Assembly: GCF_014083945.1 (NCBI RefSeq)
Contig: NZ_CP046444.1
Span: 1,178,001 to 1,242,000 of the forward strand
DNA length: 64,000 nt
Direction: 5' to 3'
Source: Granulicella sp. 5B5
GTDB taxonomy: Bacteria > Acidobacteriota > Terriglobia > Terriglobales > Acidobacteriaceae
Position numbers and translations under genes: made by a program. How positions within the stretch are numbered: the stretch's first letter is position 1; each line of letters opens with the position of its first letter. Positions 49,499 to 55,156 of this stretch are shown in pieces. The notes under the pieces were generated by a model. That model had not been told where the DNA came from and did no database searches. It saw nothing but the letters and a program-made list of their open reading frames with translations.

Positions 49499-49646
49499 CG
49501 TCTCTATCAGAACTCTCTGCCCCTTTGGGGGTGGGCGTCTCGGGGCTTCCGCCCTCACAATCAGGTTAAACTAGTTCCACTGTCGCACACCGTCGCACTC
49601 CGCTTCAATCGACCACCCGATACCACTTCAGCGAGGACCCCTCCAG

Positions 49647-50108
49647 ATGAAAGCCCTAAGCTATAAGCTTTTGACCCTCATCGACGCCGCCGGCCCGATA
49701 TTCGCTCAGGTCGATGAACACGCCAGCCTCCAGCCTCTTCACTCCGGCGGCTGGTCGCGCAAGCAGTTGGTCGGCCACCTTATCGACTCGGCCTCCAACA
49801 ACCACCAGCGCTTCGTCCGCGCCAGCCTCCAGCCGCAGCTCAACTTCCCCGGCTATGACCAGAACGGCAACGTCCGCGTGCAGCACTTTCAGCACGCATC
49901 CTGGTCCATGCTCGTCTCTCTCTGGCACTCGTACAATCAGTTCCTGGCGCACGTCATCGCACATCTGCCGGAGTCCAAGCTTCAGACCGCCTGTCGTATC
50001 GGCGTAGAAAACCCCGTCACACTCGAGTTCCTCGCGACCGACTACGTCACGCACCTCTCACACCATCTCGCCCAAATGGGCGTAGCCACTACGAACGAAC
50101 CCTCATGA
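49647..50108 (+). CDS. DinB-family protein
   Basis: Four-helix bundle protein of 153 residues in the DinB/YfiT superfamily. Typical features are a first helix (YKLLTLIDAAGPIFAQV), WSRKQLVGHLIDSASNNHQR with a metal-binding His, and a late HLSHHLAQMG motif giving two further His ligands. Family members include metal-dependent thiol-S-transferases such as bacillithiol enzymes, and some DNA-damage-induced proteins. Its ATGA overlap with the next gene (CysM-like) indicates co-transcription and hints at sulfur metabolism. Confidence 0.83.
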   Translation: MKALSYKLLTLIDAAGPIFAQVDEHASLQPLHSGGWSRKQLVGHLIDSASNNHQRFVRASLQPQLNFPGYDQNGNVRVQHFQHASWSMLVSLWHSYNQFLAHVIAHLPESKLQTACRIGVENPVTLEFLATDYVTHLSHHLAQMGVATTNEPS

Positions 50109-51097
50109 TCTCAGCTCCCGCAAAGCAACTCGGCACCACCCTTCTCGAGCGCATCGGCAACACTCCGCTCGTTCGCCTCGACAAACTCTCTGCGCATCTG
50201 CCCGGCGCCGTCCGCATCTACGGCAAAGCCGAGTGGCTCAACCCCGGCGGCAGCGTCAAAGACCGCGCCGCCTCCAACATCGTCAAGACGGCCATCGCCG
50301 AAGGCAAGCTCGAACCCAACAGCAGCCGCAAAATCCTGCTCGACGCCACCAGCGGCAACACCGGCATCGCCTACGCCATGCTCGGCGCGGCACTTGGCTT
50401 CCCTGTGCAACTCTGCATGCCCGCCAACGTCTCCGTCGAGCGCAAGCGCATCCTCGCCGCCTACGGCGCAGAGGTCACCTTCACCGACCCCGCCGACGGC
50501 TCCGACGGCGCCATCCGCAAAGTGAAGGAAGTCGCCGCCACCGATCCCGATCGCTTCTTCTACGCCGACCAGTATGGCAACGACAACAACTGGCGCGCCC
50601 ACTACAACACCACCGGCAACGAGATCTGGCAGCAGACCGAAGGCACCGTCACCCACTTCGTCTCCGCTCTCGGCACCTCCGGCACCTTCATGGGCACCAC
50701 CCGCCGCCTCAAGGAACTAAACCCGGCCATCCAGTGCGTCTCCATGCAGCCGGACTCGCCCTTCAACGGCCTCGAGGGCCTCAAGCACATGGCCACCGCC
50801 ATCGTCCCTCCCATCTACGACCCCAACCTCGCCGACTGGAACATCGACATGGCCACCGAGCGCGCCTACGCGATGGCCAAATGGCTAGGCCGCAACCAGG
50901 GCATCCTCATCGGAGTCTCCGCCGCCGCCGCCGTCTGCGCCGCTCTTGAAGTCGCTGAAGGCGAAGCCGCCCTCGGCCGCGAAGCCACCATCGTCACCAT
51001 CCTCTGCGACTCCGCGGACAAGTACCTCAGCGAACGCTTCTGGGCCGACCCCATCGCCGCCGACATCGCCCTCCACGCCAAACTCGGAGGCCGCTAG
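50105..51097 (+). CDS. cysM: CysM-type cysteine synthase (O-phosphoserine/O-acetylserine sulfhydrylase)
   Basis: PLP enzyme of 330 residues, fold type II. The PLP lysine is Lys52 in WLNPGGSVKDRAA; the LDATSGNTGIAYAML loop binds substrate; GTSGTFMG binds phosphate. The C-terminal IVPPIYDPNLADW and ISAAA-like SAAAAV region is as in cysteine synthases. It overlaps DinB by four bases and is followed by a JAMM protease, a MoaD-like carrier and a MoeZ-like E1, exactly the partners of the CysM-CysO pathway of actinobacteria, in which protein thiocarboxylate is the sulfur donor. That role is inferred from context. Confidence 0.92.
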   Translation: MISAPAKQLGTTLLERIGNTPLVRLDKLSAHLPGAVRIYGKAEWLNPGGSVKDRAASNIVKTAIAEGKLEPNSSRKILLDATSGNTGIAYAMLGAALGFPVQLCMPANVSVERKRILAAYGAEVTFTDPADGSDGAIRKVKEVAATDPDRFFYADQYGNDNNWRAHYNTTGNEIWQQTEGTVTHFVSALGTSGTFMGTTRRLKELNPAIQCVSMQPDSPFNGLEGLKHMATAIVPPIYDPNLADWNIDMATERAYAMAKWLGRNQGILIGVSAAAAVCAALEVAEGEAALGREATIVTILCDSADKYLSERFWADPIAADIALHAKLGGR

Positions 51098-51124
51098 GCT
51101 CAGCTCTCGCAACTTTTCAGTTTT

Positions 51125-51191
51125 GAAGGGGACGGGCTTCAGCCCGTCCGTCAACCCGGCCCGATGAAAGGGGCTTTAGCCCCGGAAGGCT
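51125..51191. repeat. Family-A palindromic repeat, copy 6
   Basis: Hairpin one GGACGGGCTTCAGCCCGTCC (51130-51149), hairpin two GGGGCTTTAGCCCC (51170-51183). It lies just upstream of the JAMM protease gene. Confidence 0.88.
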
Positions 51192-51208
51192 GCCCCGCAA
51201 AGGAAACC

Positions 51209-51679
51209 ATGCCCCTCATCATCCCGCAATCCCTCTACGACCAGCTCCGCGCCCACGGCGAAGAAACCTACCCCAACGAGTGCTGCGGCATCATGCTAGG
51301 CACCGCTGACGGCGACCAACTCACCGTCGCCGCTCTCCTCCGCGCCGGCAACACCCGCACCGACAGCGCCCACAACCGCTACAACATCGCTCCGCAGGAG
51401 CTCATCGCCGCCCAGCGCCAGGGCCGCAAGCTCGGCCTCGACATCGTCGGCTTCTACCACTCCCACCCCGACCACCCCGCCCAATGGTCCCCCACCGACT
51501 TCGCCGAAGCCCACTGGTTCGGCTGCGCCTACGTCATCACCTCCGTAGACGGCGACAAAACCACCGGCCACGCCCAAATCACCAACAGCTTCCTCCTCAC
51601 CGGCACCACCGAAGACGACAAAGCCTTCGCCGACCAACCCATCGAGATCACCGAGAATGCCGTCGCGAAACTTGGCTAA
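51209..51679 (+). CDS. mec: JAMM/MPN+ metalloprotease (Mec-like)
   Basis: Zinc protease of 156 residues of the JAB1/MPN superfamily. The metal and catalytic set is complete: Glu24 in NECCG, His84 and His86 in HSHPDHP, Ser94 and Asp97 in WSPTD. In the CysO pathway such an enzyme releases cysteine from the carrier after the Gly-Gly, and in Wolinella a relative trims the carrier's C-terminus. Here it sits beside a carrier with an extended tail. The last codons (VAKLG, then stop) come from a family-E repeat overlapping the gene end. AAAGGAAACC precedes the ATG. Confidence 0.9.
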   Translation: MPLIIPQSLYDQLRAHGEETYPNECCGIMLGTADGDQLTVAALLRAGNTRTDSAHNRYNIAPQELIAAQRQGRKLGLDIVGFYHSHPDHPAQWSPTDFAEAHWFGCAYVITSVDGDKTTGHAQITNSFLLTGTTEDDKAFADQPIEITENAVAKLG

Positions 51680-51709
51680 CTTCGCGAACTTTGCGGGAGA
51701 GCTTTTGCA
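51662..51709. repeat. Family-E repeat, copy 4, overlapping the JAMM stop codon
   Basis: GTCGCGAAACTTGGCTAACT then TCGCGAACTTTGCGGGAGAGC. The TAA inside it is the JAMM gene stop. Confidence 0.75.
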
Positions 51710-51747
51710 TCCTCCCCCACGCTCTCTACATCGGAGATAATAGACAT

Positions 51748-52044
51748 ATGCAGATTCACATCCCCACCCCGCTGCGCGCCTTCACCGACAAGCAGGCCAC
51801 GGTCTCGGTTGAAGCCGCCACCGTCACCGAAGCGCTCAACACGCTCACCACAACCTTCCCGGCCATGCAGCAGCACCTCTTCACCCCGGAAGGCAAGCTG
51901 CGCTCCTTCGTCAACGTCTATCTCAACGACGAGGACGTCCGCTATCTCCCCGCAGGCGACGCCACCGCCGTCACCGCCAACGACGAGCTCACCATCATCC
52001 CTTCCATCGCCGGCGGCGCCGACTGCCTTTGTTGTTGCCTCTAG
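51748..52044 (+). CDS. cysO: Sulfur-carrier protein (CysO/ThiS/MoaD-like) with Cys-rich C-terminal tail
   Basis: Ubiquitin-fold protein of 98 residues. It starts MQIHIPTPLRAFTDKQATVS and continues with LRSFVNVYLNDEDVRYLPAG DATAVTANDELTIIPSIAGG. This block closely follows CysO, which normally ends in the Gly-Gly that is adenylated and thiocarboxylated. Here Gly89-Gly90 is followed by eight more residues, ADCLCCCL, four of them cysteine. The tail would have to be removed before activation, and the neighbouring JAMM protease is the obvious candidate. GGAGA precedes the ATG. A frameshift at the end is possible but no nearby stop appears in the other frames. Confidence 0.88.
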   Translation: MQIHIPTPLRAFTDKQATVSVEAATVTEALNTLTTTFPAMQQHLFTPEGKLRSFVNVYLNDEDVRYLPAGDATAVTANDELTIIPSIAGGADCLCCCL

Positions 52045-52081
52045 CGCAACAGGCGGTCTGACGCTCCCGTCCCGCCACTCT

Positions 52082-53272
52082 CTACTCCGAAAAGATAAAC
52101 AGCATCACCCCATGTCCGGGGAAGGTCTCGTTCAGCACCCGAATGTGGCCAAGGTCCTTGCCTGCCCAGACATCATGCACCTTCGCGCCCTTCGGGAACC
52201 CAATCGCCGCGAACTCCACCGGAATATCCCGCCCCGACACCGAAGCATTCACCATCGCCACAGCCGTCCTGTGCCCGCTCAGCGGCCGCTCCCACACGCT
52301 GAAGTCCCCCAGCTGCAGCACGCGGTCGCCGCCCTTGCCCAGCTTGTCCTGGTCAATCGCAATCACCTCGCGGTTCATCAGGATCGCCTTGTCCGCCTCC
52401 GTCATCTTGCTCAAATCATTCCCCGCCAGCAGCGGAGCCCCCAGCACCGCCCACAGACTCATGTGCGTGCGATACTCCTCAGTGTTCATCCCGCCATTGC
52501 CAACCTCCAGCATGTCGGGGTCGTTCCAATGCCCAGGCGACGTGTACTTGCCCAGCCCCACCTGCCCATACGCAATATTCAGCATCCGCTGATATGTGTC
52601 GTTGATGTCATCCGTCGTCCGCCACATCGTCGCGCCAACACCCGGCCCGAACTTCCACGGCTCATCCATGCCGTACTGGCACAGGCTGTACACAATCGGC
52701 CGCCCCGTCGCCTTCAGCGCATCGCCCATCTTCTTGTAGGCCGCGATCATGAACTTGTACTCCGCCATCGGGTCTTCCGGATGCGCCGCCCTCACCGCAC
52801 GCATGTCGTCCTGCATCGAGCACAGGTCATACTTCAGAAAATCAACGCCCCACGCCGCATACATCTTCGCATCCTGCGCCTCATGCCCCAGGCTACCCTC
52901 ATAGCCTCCACAAGTCTTCGCGCCCGGCGAAGAATAAATCCCAAACTTCAGCCCCTTCGAGTGGATGTAATCCCCCAGCGCCTTCATATCCGGAAACCGC
53001 TCGTTCGGATGCAGCACCCCCGCGGCATCGCGCTTACCCTGCCACGTATCGTCGACGTTCACATACACATACCCCGCATCGCGCATCCCCGAGCTCACCA
53101 ACTCATCGGCAGCCTCGCGCACATCGGCGTCTGTCACATGGTTCGCAAAGTGGTTCCAGCTGTTCCACCCCATCGGCGGCAGCAGCGCAGCAGCCGGTTC
53201 TTTCACAGCCGTCTGCCCACTCGCCGAAACCCCAATCGCAGCCATAACCAACGCCATCACAAGATTCCGCAA
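52082..53272 (-). CDS. Secreted GH27 alpha-galactosidase
   Basis: Exported glycosidase of 396 residues with a signal peptide (VMALVMAAIGVSASG). The GH27 barrel shows PPMGWNSWNHF, YVYVNVDDTWQG, FGIYSSPGAKTCGGYEGS, and the nucleophile Asp149 in DFLKYDLC; Asp222 in WRTTDDI is the likely acid/base. The C-terminal beta domain (FSVWERPLSGHRTAVAMVNA) is complete. It should release alpha-linked galactose from oligosaccharides or galactomannan. It is inserted on the opposite strand between the CysO-like gene and the MoeZ-like gene, splitting the sulfur module. Confidence 0.95.
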   Translation of the reverse strand: MRNLVMALVMAAIGVSASGQTAVKEPAAALLPPMGWNSWNHFANHVTDADVREAADELVSSGMRDAGYVYVNVDDTWQGKRDAAGVLHPNERFPDMKALGDYIHSKGLKFGIYSSPGAKTCGGYEGSLGHEAQDAKMYAAWGVDFLKYDLCSMQDDMRAVRAAHPEDPMAEYKFMIAAYKKMGDALKATGRPIVYSLCQYGMDEPWKFGPGVGATMWRTTDDINDTYQRMLNIAYGQVGLGKYTSPGHWNDPDMLEVGNGGMNTEEYRTHMSLWAVLGAPLLAGNDLSKMTEADKAILMNREVIAIDQDKLGKGGDRVLQLGDFSVWERPLSGHRTAVAMVNASVSGRDIPVEFAAIGFPKGAKVHDVWAGKDLGHIRVLNETFPGHGVMLFIFSE

Positions 53273-53424
53273 AGCACTCTCCTCAGTGACTCGATGTCCC
53301 TGAGGAATCTATCACCTGGGCTGCTCCCTTGCCCACCACAGGTACACTGGAGGACGGCAGCCACGCGCCTGCGTCGAATCTTTCCTCCATCGCAGCGCAT
53401 CTCCATCTAGTCAGGAATTTCTAT

Positions 53425-54645
53425 ATGCCAGCCACACTCGATCATCCCGCCCTCCCCGCGCTCTCCAACGAAGAGATCGCCCGCTACTCGCGCCACCTCA
53501 TCCTTCCCGAGGTCGGCTACGAAGGCCAGCAGAAGCTCAAGGCCGCCAAAGTCCTCTGCGTCGGCACCGGAGGCCTCGGCGCGCCGCTCGCGCTCTATCT
53601 CACCGCCGCGGGCATCGGCACCATCGGGCTTGTAGATTTTGATGTCGTCGACGAGTCCAACCTGCAGCGCCAGATCATCCACTCGCAGTCCACCGTCGGC
53701 AAGCTCAAGGTCGACTCGGCCGAGCAGATGCTCAAGGGCCTCAACAAGAACGTCAACGTCATCAAGCACAACACCATGCTGACGTCCGCCAACGCCCTCG
53801 AGATCTTCAAGGACTACGACGTCATTGCCGACGGCACCGACAACTTCCAGACCCGCTACCTCGTCAACGACGCCTGCGTCCTCACCGGCAAGCCCAACGC
53901 CTACGGCAGCATCTTCCGCTTCGAGGGCCAGGCATCCGTCTTCGCCACTGAGGAAGGACCCTGCTACCGCTGCCTCTACCCCGAGCCGCCACCGCCGGGC
54001 CTCGTCCCGTCATGCGCAGAGGGCGGAGTCCTCGGAATCCTCCCCGGCCTCGTCGGCGTCATCCAGGCCACCGAGGTCATCAAACTGATCCTCGGAATCG
54101 GCGAGCCCCTCATCGGTCGCCTGCTCTTAGTCGACGCACTCGGCATGAACTTCCGCCAGCTCAAGCTACGCAAGAACCCCGACTGCCCCGCCTGCGGCAC
54201 GCACGAGATCAAGGAACTCATCGACTACGACCAGTTCTGCGGCATCGAAAAGCCCGCAGCCGTCGGCCCGCTCGAAGTCAGCAGCCACGGTAACGTCGAC
54301 GCATCGGCAAGCAGCGTCGACGGCATCCCGCAGATCACCGTCGAAGAGCTCAAGCGCAAGCGTGACGCGCACGAAGACTTCTTCCTGCTCGACGTCCGCG
54401 AACCGCACGAGGTCCCCATCGCCTCGCTCGGCGCGCCACTCATCCCCGTCGGTTCCATCGAGGCTCGCGCGAACGAGATCGCCGACCACAAGAACGACGA
54501 GGTCATCGTCCACTGCCGCTCCGGCGCCCGCAGCCAGAAGGCCGCACTCGCCCTCAAGGCAGCAGGCTTCACCAACGTCAAAAACCTCGCTGGCGGCATC
54601 CTCGCCTGGGCCGACAAAATCGACCCCACCATGCCCAAGTACTAG
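53425..54645 (+). CDS. moeZ: MoeZ/MoeB-type E1-like adenylyltransferase-sulfurtransferase
   Basis: Activating enzyme of 406 residues for sulfur-carrier proteins. N-terminal E1-like domain: GTGGLGAPLALYLTAAGIGT, DFDVVDESNLQRQIIH, thiol Cys197 in PSCAEGG, and zinc cysteines 180/183 and 254/257. C-terminal rhodanese domain from about residue 300, with active Cys364 in VHCRSGARS. This fusion is the MoeZ type that adenylates and sulfurates CysO or MoaD. AGGAA lies eight bases before the chosen ATG. With CysM, the JAMM protease and the carrier it completes a cysteine-forming module; molybdopterin or thiazole roles are alternatives. Confidence 0.94.
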   Translation: MPATLDHPALPALSNEEIARYSRHLILPEVGYEGQQKLKAAKVLCVGTGGLGAPLALYLTAAGIGTIGLVDFDVVDESNLQRQIIHSQSTVGKLKVDSAEQMLKGLNKNVNVIKHNTMLTSANALEIFKDYDVIADGTDNFQTRYLVNDACVLTGKPNAYGSIFRFEGQASVFATEEGPCYRCLYPEPPPPGLVPSCAEGGVLGILPGLVGVIQATEVIKLILGIGEPLIGRLLLVDALGMNFRQLKLRKNPDCPACGTHEIKELIDYDQFCGIEKPAAVGPLEVSSHGNVDASASSVDGIPQITVEELKRKRDAHEDFFLLDVREPHEVPIASLGAPLIPVGSIEARANEIADHKNDEVIVHCRSGARSQKAALALKAAGFTNVKNLAGGILAWADKIDPTMPKY

Positions 54646-54763
54646 CGCGAATAACTGGCGTACTGGCAAACTGGAGCGCTGGCAACTGGCAATCAAACCC
54701 TCAGCCCATGCATGGCGACCTCATGCATGGGCTGACGATCATCACCCGCTCAAACCAATCTCG

Positions 54764-55156
54764 ATGCCAACACCCACCGCAGAATCCCTCATCCGCGCCA
54801 CCCGCGACCGTTCCAACCGCGGTATCGCCGAGCTCAACCTACACATCGTCGCCGAATCACTCGACAAAGACTTCCTCGTCATCGTCGGCGACGGCACACT
54901 ACTCCCCACACGCGACACCTACCTCGAAGCCTTCAAAGCCGAATTCGCCGCCCCGGCGCGCGTTCGTTACACGCGCACACCCGACACCATCGCCGTCTCC
55001 ACCTCCCACCCACTCGCCTCCGAGCAGGGCCGCTGGACCGCCACACTCCCCGACGGAACCGTCACCCACTCCGGCACCTACTCCGCCATATGGCGTCGCA
55101 CCTCATCCGGCTGGAAGCTCCGTTCCGAATTCTTCGTCACGCTCACTCAGAGCTGA
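54764..55156 (+). CDS. DUF4440/NTF2-like protein
   Basis: Cytoplasmic protein of 130 residues with the NTF2 cone fold: a first long helix (ESLIRATRDRSNRGIAELNL), the strand HIVAESLDKDFLVIVGDGTL, and beta strands ending RRTSSGWKLRSEFFVTLTQ. The Asp/His pairs usual for SnoaL-type enzymes are not clear, so function is unknown. It lies 118 bases after moeZ on the same strand. Confidence 0.75.
   Translation: MPTPTAESLIRATRDRSNRGIAELNLHIVAESLDKDFLVIVGDGTLLPTRDTYLEAFKAEFAAPARVRYTRTPDTIAVSTSHPLASEQGRWTATLPDGTVTHSGTYSAIWRRTSSGWKLRSEFFVTLTQS

Follow-up and report, generated by a model that had tools for sequence, protein, structure and literature searches.

The CysO-CysM-Mec-MoeZ cysteine pathway comprises four kinds of protein that are also encoded by a gene cluster in a stretch of 64,000 nucleotides (nt) from the acidobacterium Granulicella sp. 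5B5 (contig NZ_CP046444.1, positions 1,178,001 to 1,242,000; henceforth the window, to whose numbering its coordinates refer), and our subject is the cysteine-rich tail, ADCLCCCL, which the CysO-like sulfur carrier of this cluster bears after Gly-Gly. While mycobacterial CysO ends at Gly-Gly, in the present family a tail, or the E1 enzyme itself, follows. Parallels are found in HcyS/HcyD of Wolinella and QbsE/QbsD of Pseudomonas, whose carriers are trimmed after Gly-Gly. As in these, an extension that must be removed is present in MoaX of M. tuberculosis, where an unidentified protease cuts behind Gly82 (PMC4326299); unlike in all three, cysteine codons abound in the extension here, which is linked to how far away the next gene lies. 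The type of cluster is itself already known as operon class 4c of Iyer 2006, which combines ThiS/MoaD, E1-rhodanese, JAB and cysteine synthase genes and includes an acidobacterium (PMC1779556).

The second group of described systems consists of cysteine leader peptides. In mycobacterial cys operons a run of cysteine codons near a stop precedes genes of cysteine synthesis, and Seliverstov 2005, pointing to pyrimidine-rich motifs and finding no conserved hairpins, proposed the involvement of Rho (PMC1262725). Contiguous cysteine codons in M. smegmatis are reported to control downstream genes by attenuation (PMC9031893), and mycobacterial cysteine leaders are also the subject of Canestrari 2020, as cited in PMC9031893 and PMC13236596. 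The uORFC-8-2 attenuator of cysS in Rhodobacterales joins tandem cysteine codons to a terminator, with ribosome-mediated attenuation as the predicted model (PMC8632094). The tails described below resemble the mycobacterial leaders in having cysteine codons near the stop, a position ahead of genes of cysteine synthesis, no conserved terminator and a suggested role for Rho; however, the mycobacterial run is a separate short open reading frame (ORF), whereas here the run closes a sulfur-carrier gene at its 3' end, and a protease is at hand to remove the peptide. They share tandem cysteine codons and the predicted model of ribosome-mediated attenuation with uORFC-8-2, but UGU dominates rather than UGC, the gene and the phylum are different, and the present genus shows no clear terminator. 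Thus, cysteine leader peptides are already known, and so are carriers with cleavage behind Gly-Gly; as far as searches of one open library go (several yielded mainly unrelated papers, and subscription journals lie largely outside it), their union in one gene is new, as are cysteine attenuators in Acidobacteriota.

We propose, with a probability of roughly 0.6, that the tail is a cysteine-codon leader, i.e. an attenuator, which has become an in-frame extension of the carrier gene and is removed from the product by the JAMM protease of the cluster. Its sequence basis is the tail, its codon bias, its link to spacer length, free-standing cysteine ORFs in relatives and two leaders with terminators. 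In the proposed mechanism, of which we infer the stalling, the direction of control, the RNA step in the genus and the JAMM cleavage, ribosomes completing the carrier would pass through successive cysteine codons, for the most part the uncommon TGT, immediately ahead of the spacer that leads to E1. When charged tRNA-Cys is scarce they would stall at these codons and alter expression of the downstream gene, so that more thiocarboxylate would be supplied for cysteine synthesis. The extra residues would be harmless, because the JAMM enzyme of the same pathway is expected to cut after Gly-Gly. In the relatives at least, the codon run most likely works as an mRNA cysteine sensor. A wider claim, to which we give somewhat less than an even chance, is that a working protein doubles as the leader peptide of its operon, that sensing codons have repeatedly been placed behind a protease cut point, and that translation of the carrier reports charged tRNA-Cys and sets the supply of E1. 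If true, the odd and fast-changing tail of a ubiquitin-like carrier would be a regulatory device at the codon level rather than a part of the protein; the protease that frees Gly-Gly would let a coding sequence bear sensor codons without cost to its product; cysteine attenuation, as in mycobacterial cys operons and Rhodobacterales cysS, would reach Acidobacteriota; and a TGT-rich cysteine tail with a long spacer would serve as a search rule for more cases.

The tail and its codons

51748..52044, plus strand: CysO-like ThiS/MoaD sulfur carrier precursor of 98 amino acids, from its ATG to the stop (Pfam ThiS, E 9.5e-11)
52012..52017, plus strand: codons of Gly89-Gly90, aligned with the C-terminus of CysO; JAMM cleavage is predicted after Gly90
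52018..52044, plus strand: tail ADCLCCCL and stop, GCC GAC TGC CTT TGT TGT TGC CTC TAG, the proposed fused cysteine-codon leader

The reading of Gly89-Gly90 followed by ADCLCCCL, made in an initial annotation of this DNA, is borne out by the 98-residue ORF; as encoded, the carrier has no free C-terminal Gly-Gly, with eight residues standing after Gly90. Its best solved relative is M. tuberculosis 3dwg_C (E 5e-15), which we take to be CysO (the PDB record names it 9.5 kDa culture filtrate antigen cfp10A). The final residue of that chain aligns with Gly90, and therefore all eight tail residues lie beyond the end of CysO. The carrier also scores slightly below the cut-off of the NCBIfam model SAMP1 (58 against 60 bits).

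A comparison of the C-termini of homologous carriers, as the initial annotation had advised, covered 154 distinct carriers, left after 13 near-copies (at most 6 differences in 200 nt) had been dropped from 167 loci; 150 of them run past Gly-Gly and just four end there. The outcome raised in that annotation, with homologues all ending at Gly-Gly, is not what we find. Within the genus, 24 of 28 genomes (the window's own counted) have a carrier ortholog at E 1e-22 or better; the four without one, and one with only a partial match, leave 23 in the counts that follow. At least two cysteines are present in 19/23 tails, CCR closes 16/23, and 14/23 have the ending TGTTGTCGC. The tail of the nearest genome (G015) is SAFCCPCCCL; in view of this and of the 19 genus tails with at least two cysteines, a sequencing error is unlikely. 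Of the 208 residues in the genus tails 31.2% are cysteine, against 8 among 12,320 (0.06%) in the carrier bodies when all 154 loci are taken together; the run is therefore not a product of chance. The opposite position, namely that JAMM removes anything after Gly-Gly, so that the tail drifts and its cysteines are accidental, draws on the high variability of the tails, many of which are one or two residues long; it is, however, contradicted by this composition, and also by the codon bias, the repeated changes on well-supported branches and the link to spacer length presented below, and we hold it to be decidedly improbable.

The codon usage of the tails is equally distinctive. Tails with at least two cysteines use TGT 96 and TGC 20 times, while the bodies of the four genes use them 259 and 1874 times (counts uncorrected for kinship); an earlier, smaller count gave 85:12 against 169:1355, and the tails beyond the genus alone give 40:13. 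Such a bias might also reflect an RNA or DNA element, in which a hairpin or binding site would be built from TGTTGTCGC together with GCGAGAAC, its partner downstream, with the cysteines arising as a side effect of the frame. Indeed, GCGAGAAC occurs soon after the stop in 10/23 genus loci, at a variable distance, and could pair with GTTGTCGC save for one mismatch. However, a nucleotide motif would allow the frame to vary. A survey of the first 110 annotated loci found 18 TGT-runs within their operons or close by: 11 in carriers, every one in the cysteine frame; six outside the four genes, each belonging to a short ORF that has a start codon and lying in its cysteine frame; and one inside CysM in a different frame. 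The 17 runs other than that inside CysM therefore share one constant frame, which disfavors a pure motif, and we rejected it as the main reading; moreover, the TGT-rich tails of L026, L035, L037, L048 and L080 have no partner motif. We accordingly regard the nucleotide element as unlikely.

As a separate observation, the carriers of one E1 clade (L203, L226, L227, L048, L078) end in QCICS, RCVCS, RCICS or RCICR, about 148-170 nt before E1. In L048 and L078, the two whose codons were read, the C-x-C pair is encoded by TGT, and these may possibly represent an independent cysteine-codon tail.

Spacers, free-standing frames and leaders in relatives

Where carrier and E1 are 60-600 nt apart, cysteine tails are present at 31/55 loci, against 1/49 where less than 60 nt lie between them (Fisher 2e-10); outside the genus they are present at 15/38 against 1/47. 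In 15/23 genus loci E1 lies 112-287 nt downstream of the carrier. On an E1 tree of 138 rows the tails undergo 13 changes, at least 10 of which are forced by well-supported branches. The stretch past the stop also differs: in a 60-nt interval beginning 15 nt beyond it, the excess of C over G is +0.145 with a cysteine tail (n=32) against -0.001 without (n=25; p 2.6e-6), and the difference holds beyond the genus (p 0.0025). Such C-rich RNA would be as expected for Rho binding. Intrinsic terminators are not clearly enriched in the tail-E1 spacers, and hence a Rho-dependent step is the better guess for the genus.

Two further control devices were considered for these spacers and set aside: intrinsic terminators, which find little support in the counts given below, and sequestration of the Shine-Dalgarno sequence by the cysteine run, modelled at 35 loci with no ribosome, with a ribosome on the first cysteine codon and with one at the stop, with no consistent effect. 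Separately, a near-palindrome, GAGCATCTGYTC (GACATCTGTTC in L133), lies about 50-75 nt past the carrier stop in the spacers of L116, L117, L121, L124, L125, L132 and L133, and is a candidate operator or hairpin.

A detached form of the same run is seen in five relatives whose carrier has no cysteine tail (G049, G036, G041, G055, L053). Here, the carrier-E1 spacer holds a separate cysteine-containing ORF (MLMCCHPRMCCGSCRCCR, MKNKVNPRIVGCCRPSRL, MSVAFMNRRMTRPARCCRPCCC, MTATVTDKLAPTVCHTACACCCLLCRL and MPAGLTTRMPLLSTCCCCCPLCCCR), four of the five containing TGTTGTCGC. Four of the five start 3-5 nt past the carrier stop, as if translationally coupled to the carrier, and loss of that stop in the right frame would yield the fused form. 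Among spacers of 40-700 nt without a cysteine tail, a loose criterion finds such an ORF in 5/37 (1.02 expected from shuffles; antisense 2) and a requirement for at least four cysteines in 4/37 (0.235 expected from dinucleotide shuffles, P 1.1e-4), against 1/32 (1.15 expected) and 0/32 in spacers with a tail, the restriction to the carrier-E1 spacer having been chosen after L053 and L069 had been seen. Cysteine runs also occur elsewhere in the operons, with five cysteines ahead of the carrier in L028 and four before CysM in L042 and L045, in a GTG-initiated ORF six bases past TATAAT.

In two more distant operons a cysteine leader peptide is followed by a terminator hairpin, upstream of cysM-JAMM-carrier-E1:

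L091, 3411-3533: cysteine leader and terminator, upstream of CysM
L105, 3275-3438: cysteine leader and terminator, upstream of CysM

The L091 leader is MCCCRRTWDGSPAVAFVS. Its terminator is a 12-pair hairpin (-26.1 kcal/mol) followed by T7; a dedicated terminator scan found it, while a general pattern scan did not list it, probably because the stem continues into the T run. The 3' part of the leader pairs with the 5' arm of the terminator (duplex of 14 pairs, -29.1 kcal/mol), making what the model suggests is a near-perfect antiterminator: in nascent RNA ending at that arm, its probability is 0.91 when free and 0.99 when a ribosome stands on the cysteine codons, dropping to 0.00 when the ribosome is at the leader stop. 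The L105 leader has 34 residues, 10 of them cysteine, and precedes a 14-pair hairpin and AAATTTTT before CysM; this hairpin has a fold z-score of -5.4, and the competing duplex is weaker (-14.1 kcal/mol). The two may represent a new family of RNAs or leader peptides.

Against these lines of evidence stand a number of results, both in the family and in the window, that weigh on the other side of the leader reading. In tree-independent pairs the spacer link points the same way without reaching significance (median p 0.25, or 0.06 when free ORFs are counted), a test that lacks power. Intrinsic terminators in the tail-E1 spacers number 5/30 against 1.9 expected, a weak excess only, and modelled Shine-Dalgarno access hardly separates the stalled from the terminating state at 30 tail loci (0.52 against 0.53) and departs from the expected direction at the five free-ORF loci (0.38, 0.42). 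The L091 antiterminator appears in nascent RNA only, the terminator prevailing in full-length RNA at equilibrium at every ribosome position (0.73 against 0.00). The free ORFs have a weaker codon bias than the tails (TGT 18 : TGC 10), and 8/13 loci with no cysteine tail and a spacer of 100-160 nt have no free cysteine ORF by the set criterion. No sense excess appears overall: strong cysteine-rich frames across 936 kb number 22 sense against 28 antisense, and a looser test found cysteine-rich ORFs in five sense against six antisense regions upstream of the four genes. The candidate leaders before CysM have no Shine-Dalgarno match at the spacing used, two appearing leaderless, and NCBIfam gives no match to five leader peptides. 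The rest of the genome shows no clear polycysteine leader among the 60 of 128 listed pattern matches that were taken as loci, six of these having candidates. In the window only two of the four tail cysteine codons are TGT, no cysteine leader is visible by eye before E1, and E1 lies 1.38 kb from the carrier, behind a convergent galactosidase gene, so that the run does not stand directly upstream of the gene it would control. Nor is it a short free-standing ORF, a form found in the relatives only, but a part of the carrier ORF; it does share with attenuators the placing of cysteine codons near the stop (TGC CTT TGT TGT TGC CTC TAG). With the galactosidase gene parting tail from E1, the module in the window is, judging from gene order, probably a relic or a 3'-end element, the run perhaps forming part of a 3'-end hairpin, and the functional claim therefore rests on the family and not on this copy.

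The genome-wide candidates are L146, L171, L177, L183, L189 and L193, plus one on the strand opposite the carrier; L171, the one followed up, proved to be a gene-end terminator.

Probable trimming after Gly-Gly

Removal of the tail is the other half of the leader reading. A JAMM gene is present in the same stretch at 138/150 loci with an extended carrier, as opposed to 1/4 of those ending at Gly-Gly. Two of the three without it (G032, G094) also have no CysM or E1 in the stretch, and may be another kind of carrier. Part of the 12 JAMM-less extended loci is explained by contig ends (L053, L104) or by a JAMM gene that sits farther off, 4 kb or 11 kb upstream within the contig or on a different one (G015, G018, G016); within the genus 26/28 genomes have the gene. 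This co-occurrence is consistent with JAMM cleavage behind Gly-Gly, without proving it, and the neighboring protease probably removes the leftover tail from the carrier.

The initial annotation had posited an inactive precursor whose trimming is possibly regulated by metal or redox state: the precursor agrees with these counts, but regulation of this kind is not supported. Under such gating, JAMM trimming would be governed by tail cysteines that coordinate metal or are joined in disulfides, a view that would suit both the 19/23 genus tails with at least two cysteines and the intact metal site of the protease. However, such a tail asks for no particular codon, and function at the protein level therefore does not predict the TGT bias; similar runs occur in separate ORFs detached from the carrier; cysteine-rich tails range from 3 to 21 residues with no fixed cysteine spacing; and tails close to E1 are almost never cysteine-rich. 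Furthermore, tails of a single residue (R, D or Y) are common, and hence cysteines are not needed for trimming. We consider this gating quite unlikely.

In 37/154 carriers the frame reads through into E1-rhodanese without a stop, and in 117/154 the two are separate; among the latter, G081 is probably a 38th fusion, as its contig ends while the carrier runs into E1-like sequence. The fused and separate states change 14 times on the E1 tree, and cleavage after Gly-Gly is predicted to split the fusions into two proteins.

The same genome has a second ThiS-family carrier (L195 739-2498; G000 near 3.484 Mb), which ends in GG-CFADGD and lies directly 3' of a pyridoxal-phosphate-dependent enzyme resembling threonine synthase (named by eye; Pfam gives PALP only).

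The gene cluster of the window

50105..51097, plus strand: CysM-type cysteine synthase of the PALP fold (Pfam PALP, E 1e-64)
51209..51679, plus strand: JAMM/Prok-JAB metalloprotease (Prok-JAB, E 7e-24)
52010..52075, plus strand: stem-loop across the tail codons and stop, GACTGCCT with AGGCGGTC and GTTGTTGC with GCGCAAC
52082..53272, minus strand: alpha-galactosidase gene, convergent with the carrier, between carrier and E1 (Pfam Melibiase_2, E 5e-62)
53425..54645, plus strand: MoeZ-like E1-like adenylyltransferase-rhodanese fusion (Pfam ThiF, E 6e-81; Rhodanese, E 5e-13)

The gene content named in the initial annotation is largely upheld. Its CysM-type synthase lies outside the range it had given, and scores below the cut-off of the NCBIfam cysM model (324.7 against 394.2 bits); the E1-rhodanese fusion has both domains; and the JAMM protein has the full metal-site motif of Glu, His-x-His, Ser and Asp (Glu24, His84, His86, Ser94, Asp97), and an alignment of 130 sequences, that of the window among them, keeps each of these residues in 129-130. 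The minus-strand galactosidase gene had been overlooked. Besides the window, this gene is found in 2/20 other genus stretches (L114, L128); in G015, and in G012, whose tail has only one cysteine, it likewise parts carrier from E1.

The stem-loop folds at -30.1 kcal/mol, a raw energy without shuffle control, and could be a 3'-end hairpin between convergent genes. An Rfam search over 49500-54800 gave a sole match, to sX13, at chance level (23.5 bits against a cut-off of 50). Finally, the E1 of the window is closest to that of L034, with G015 falling in a well-supported set without the window, whereas by their carriers the window and G015 are closest kin; this mismatch may have arisen through recombination in the region of the galactosidase gene.

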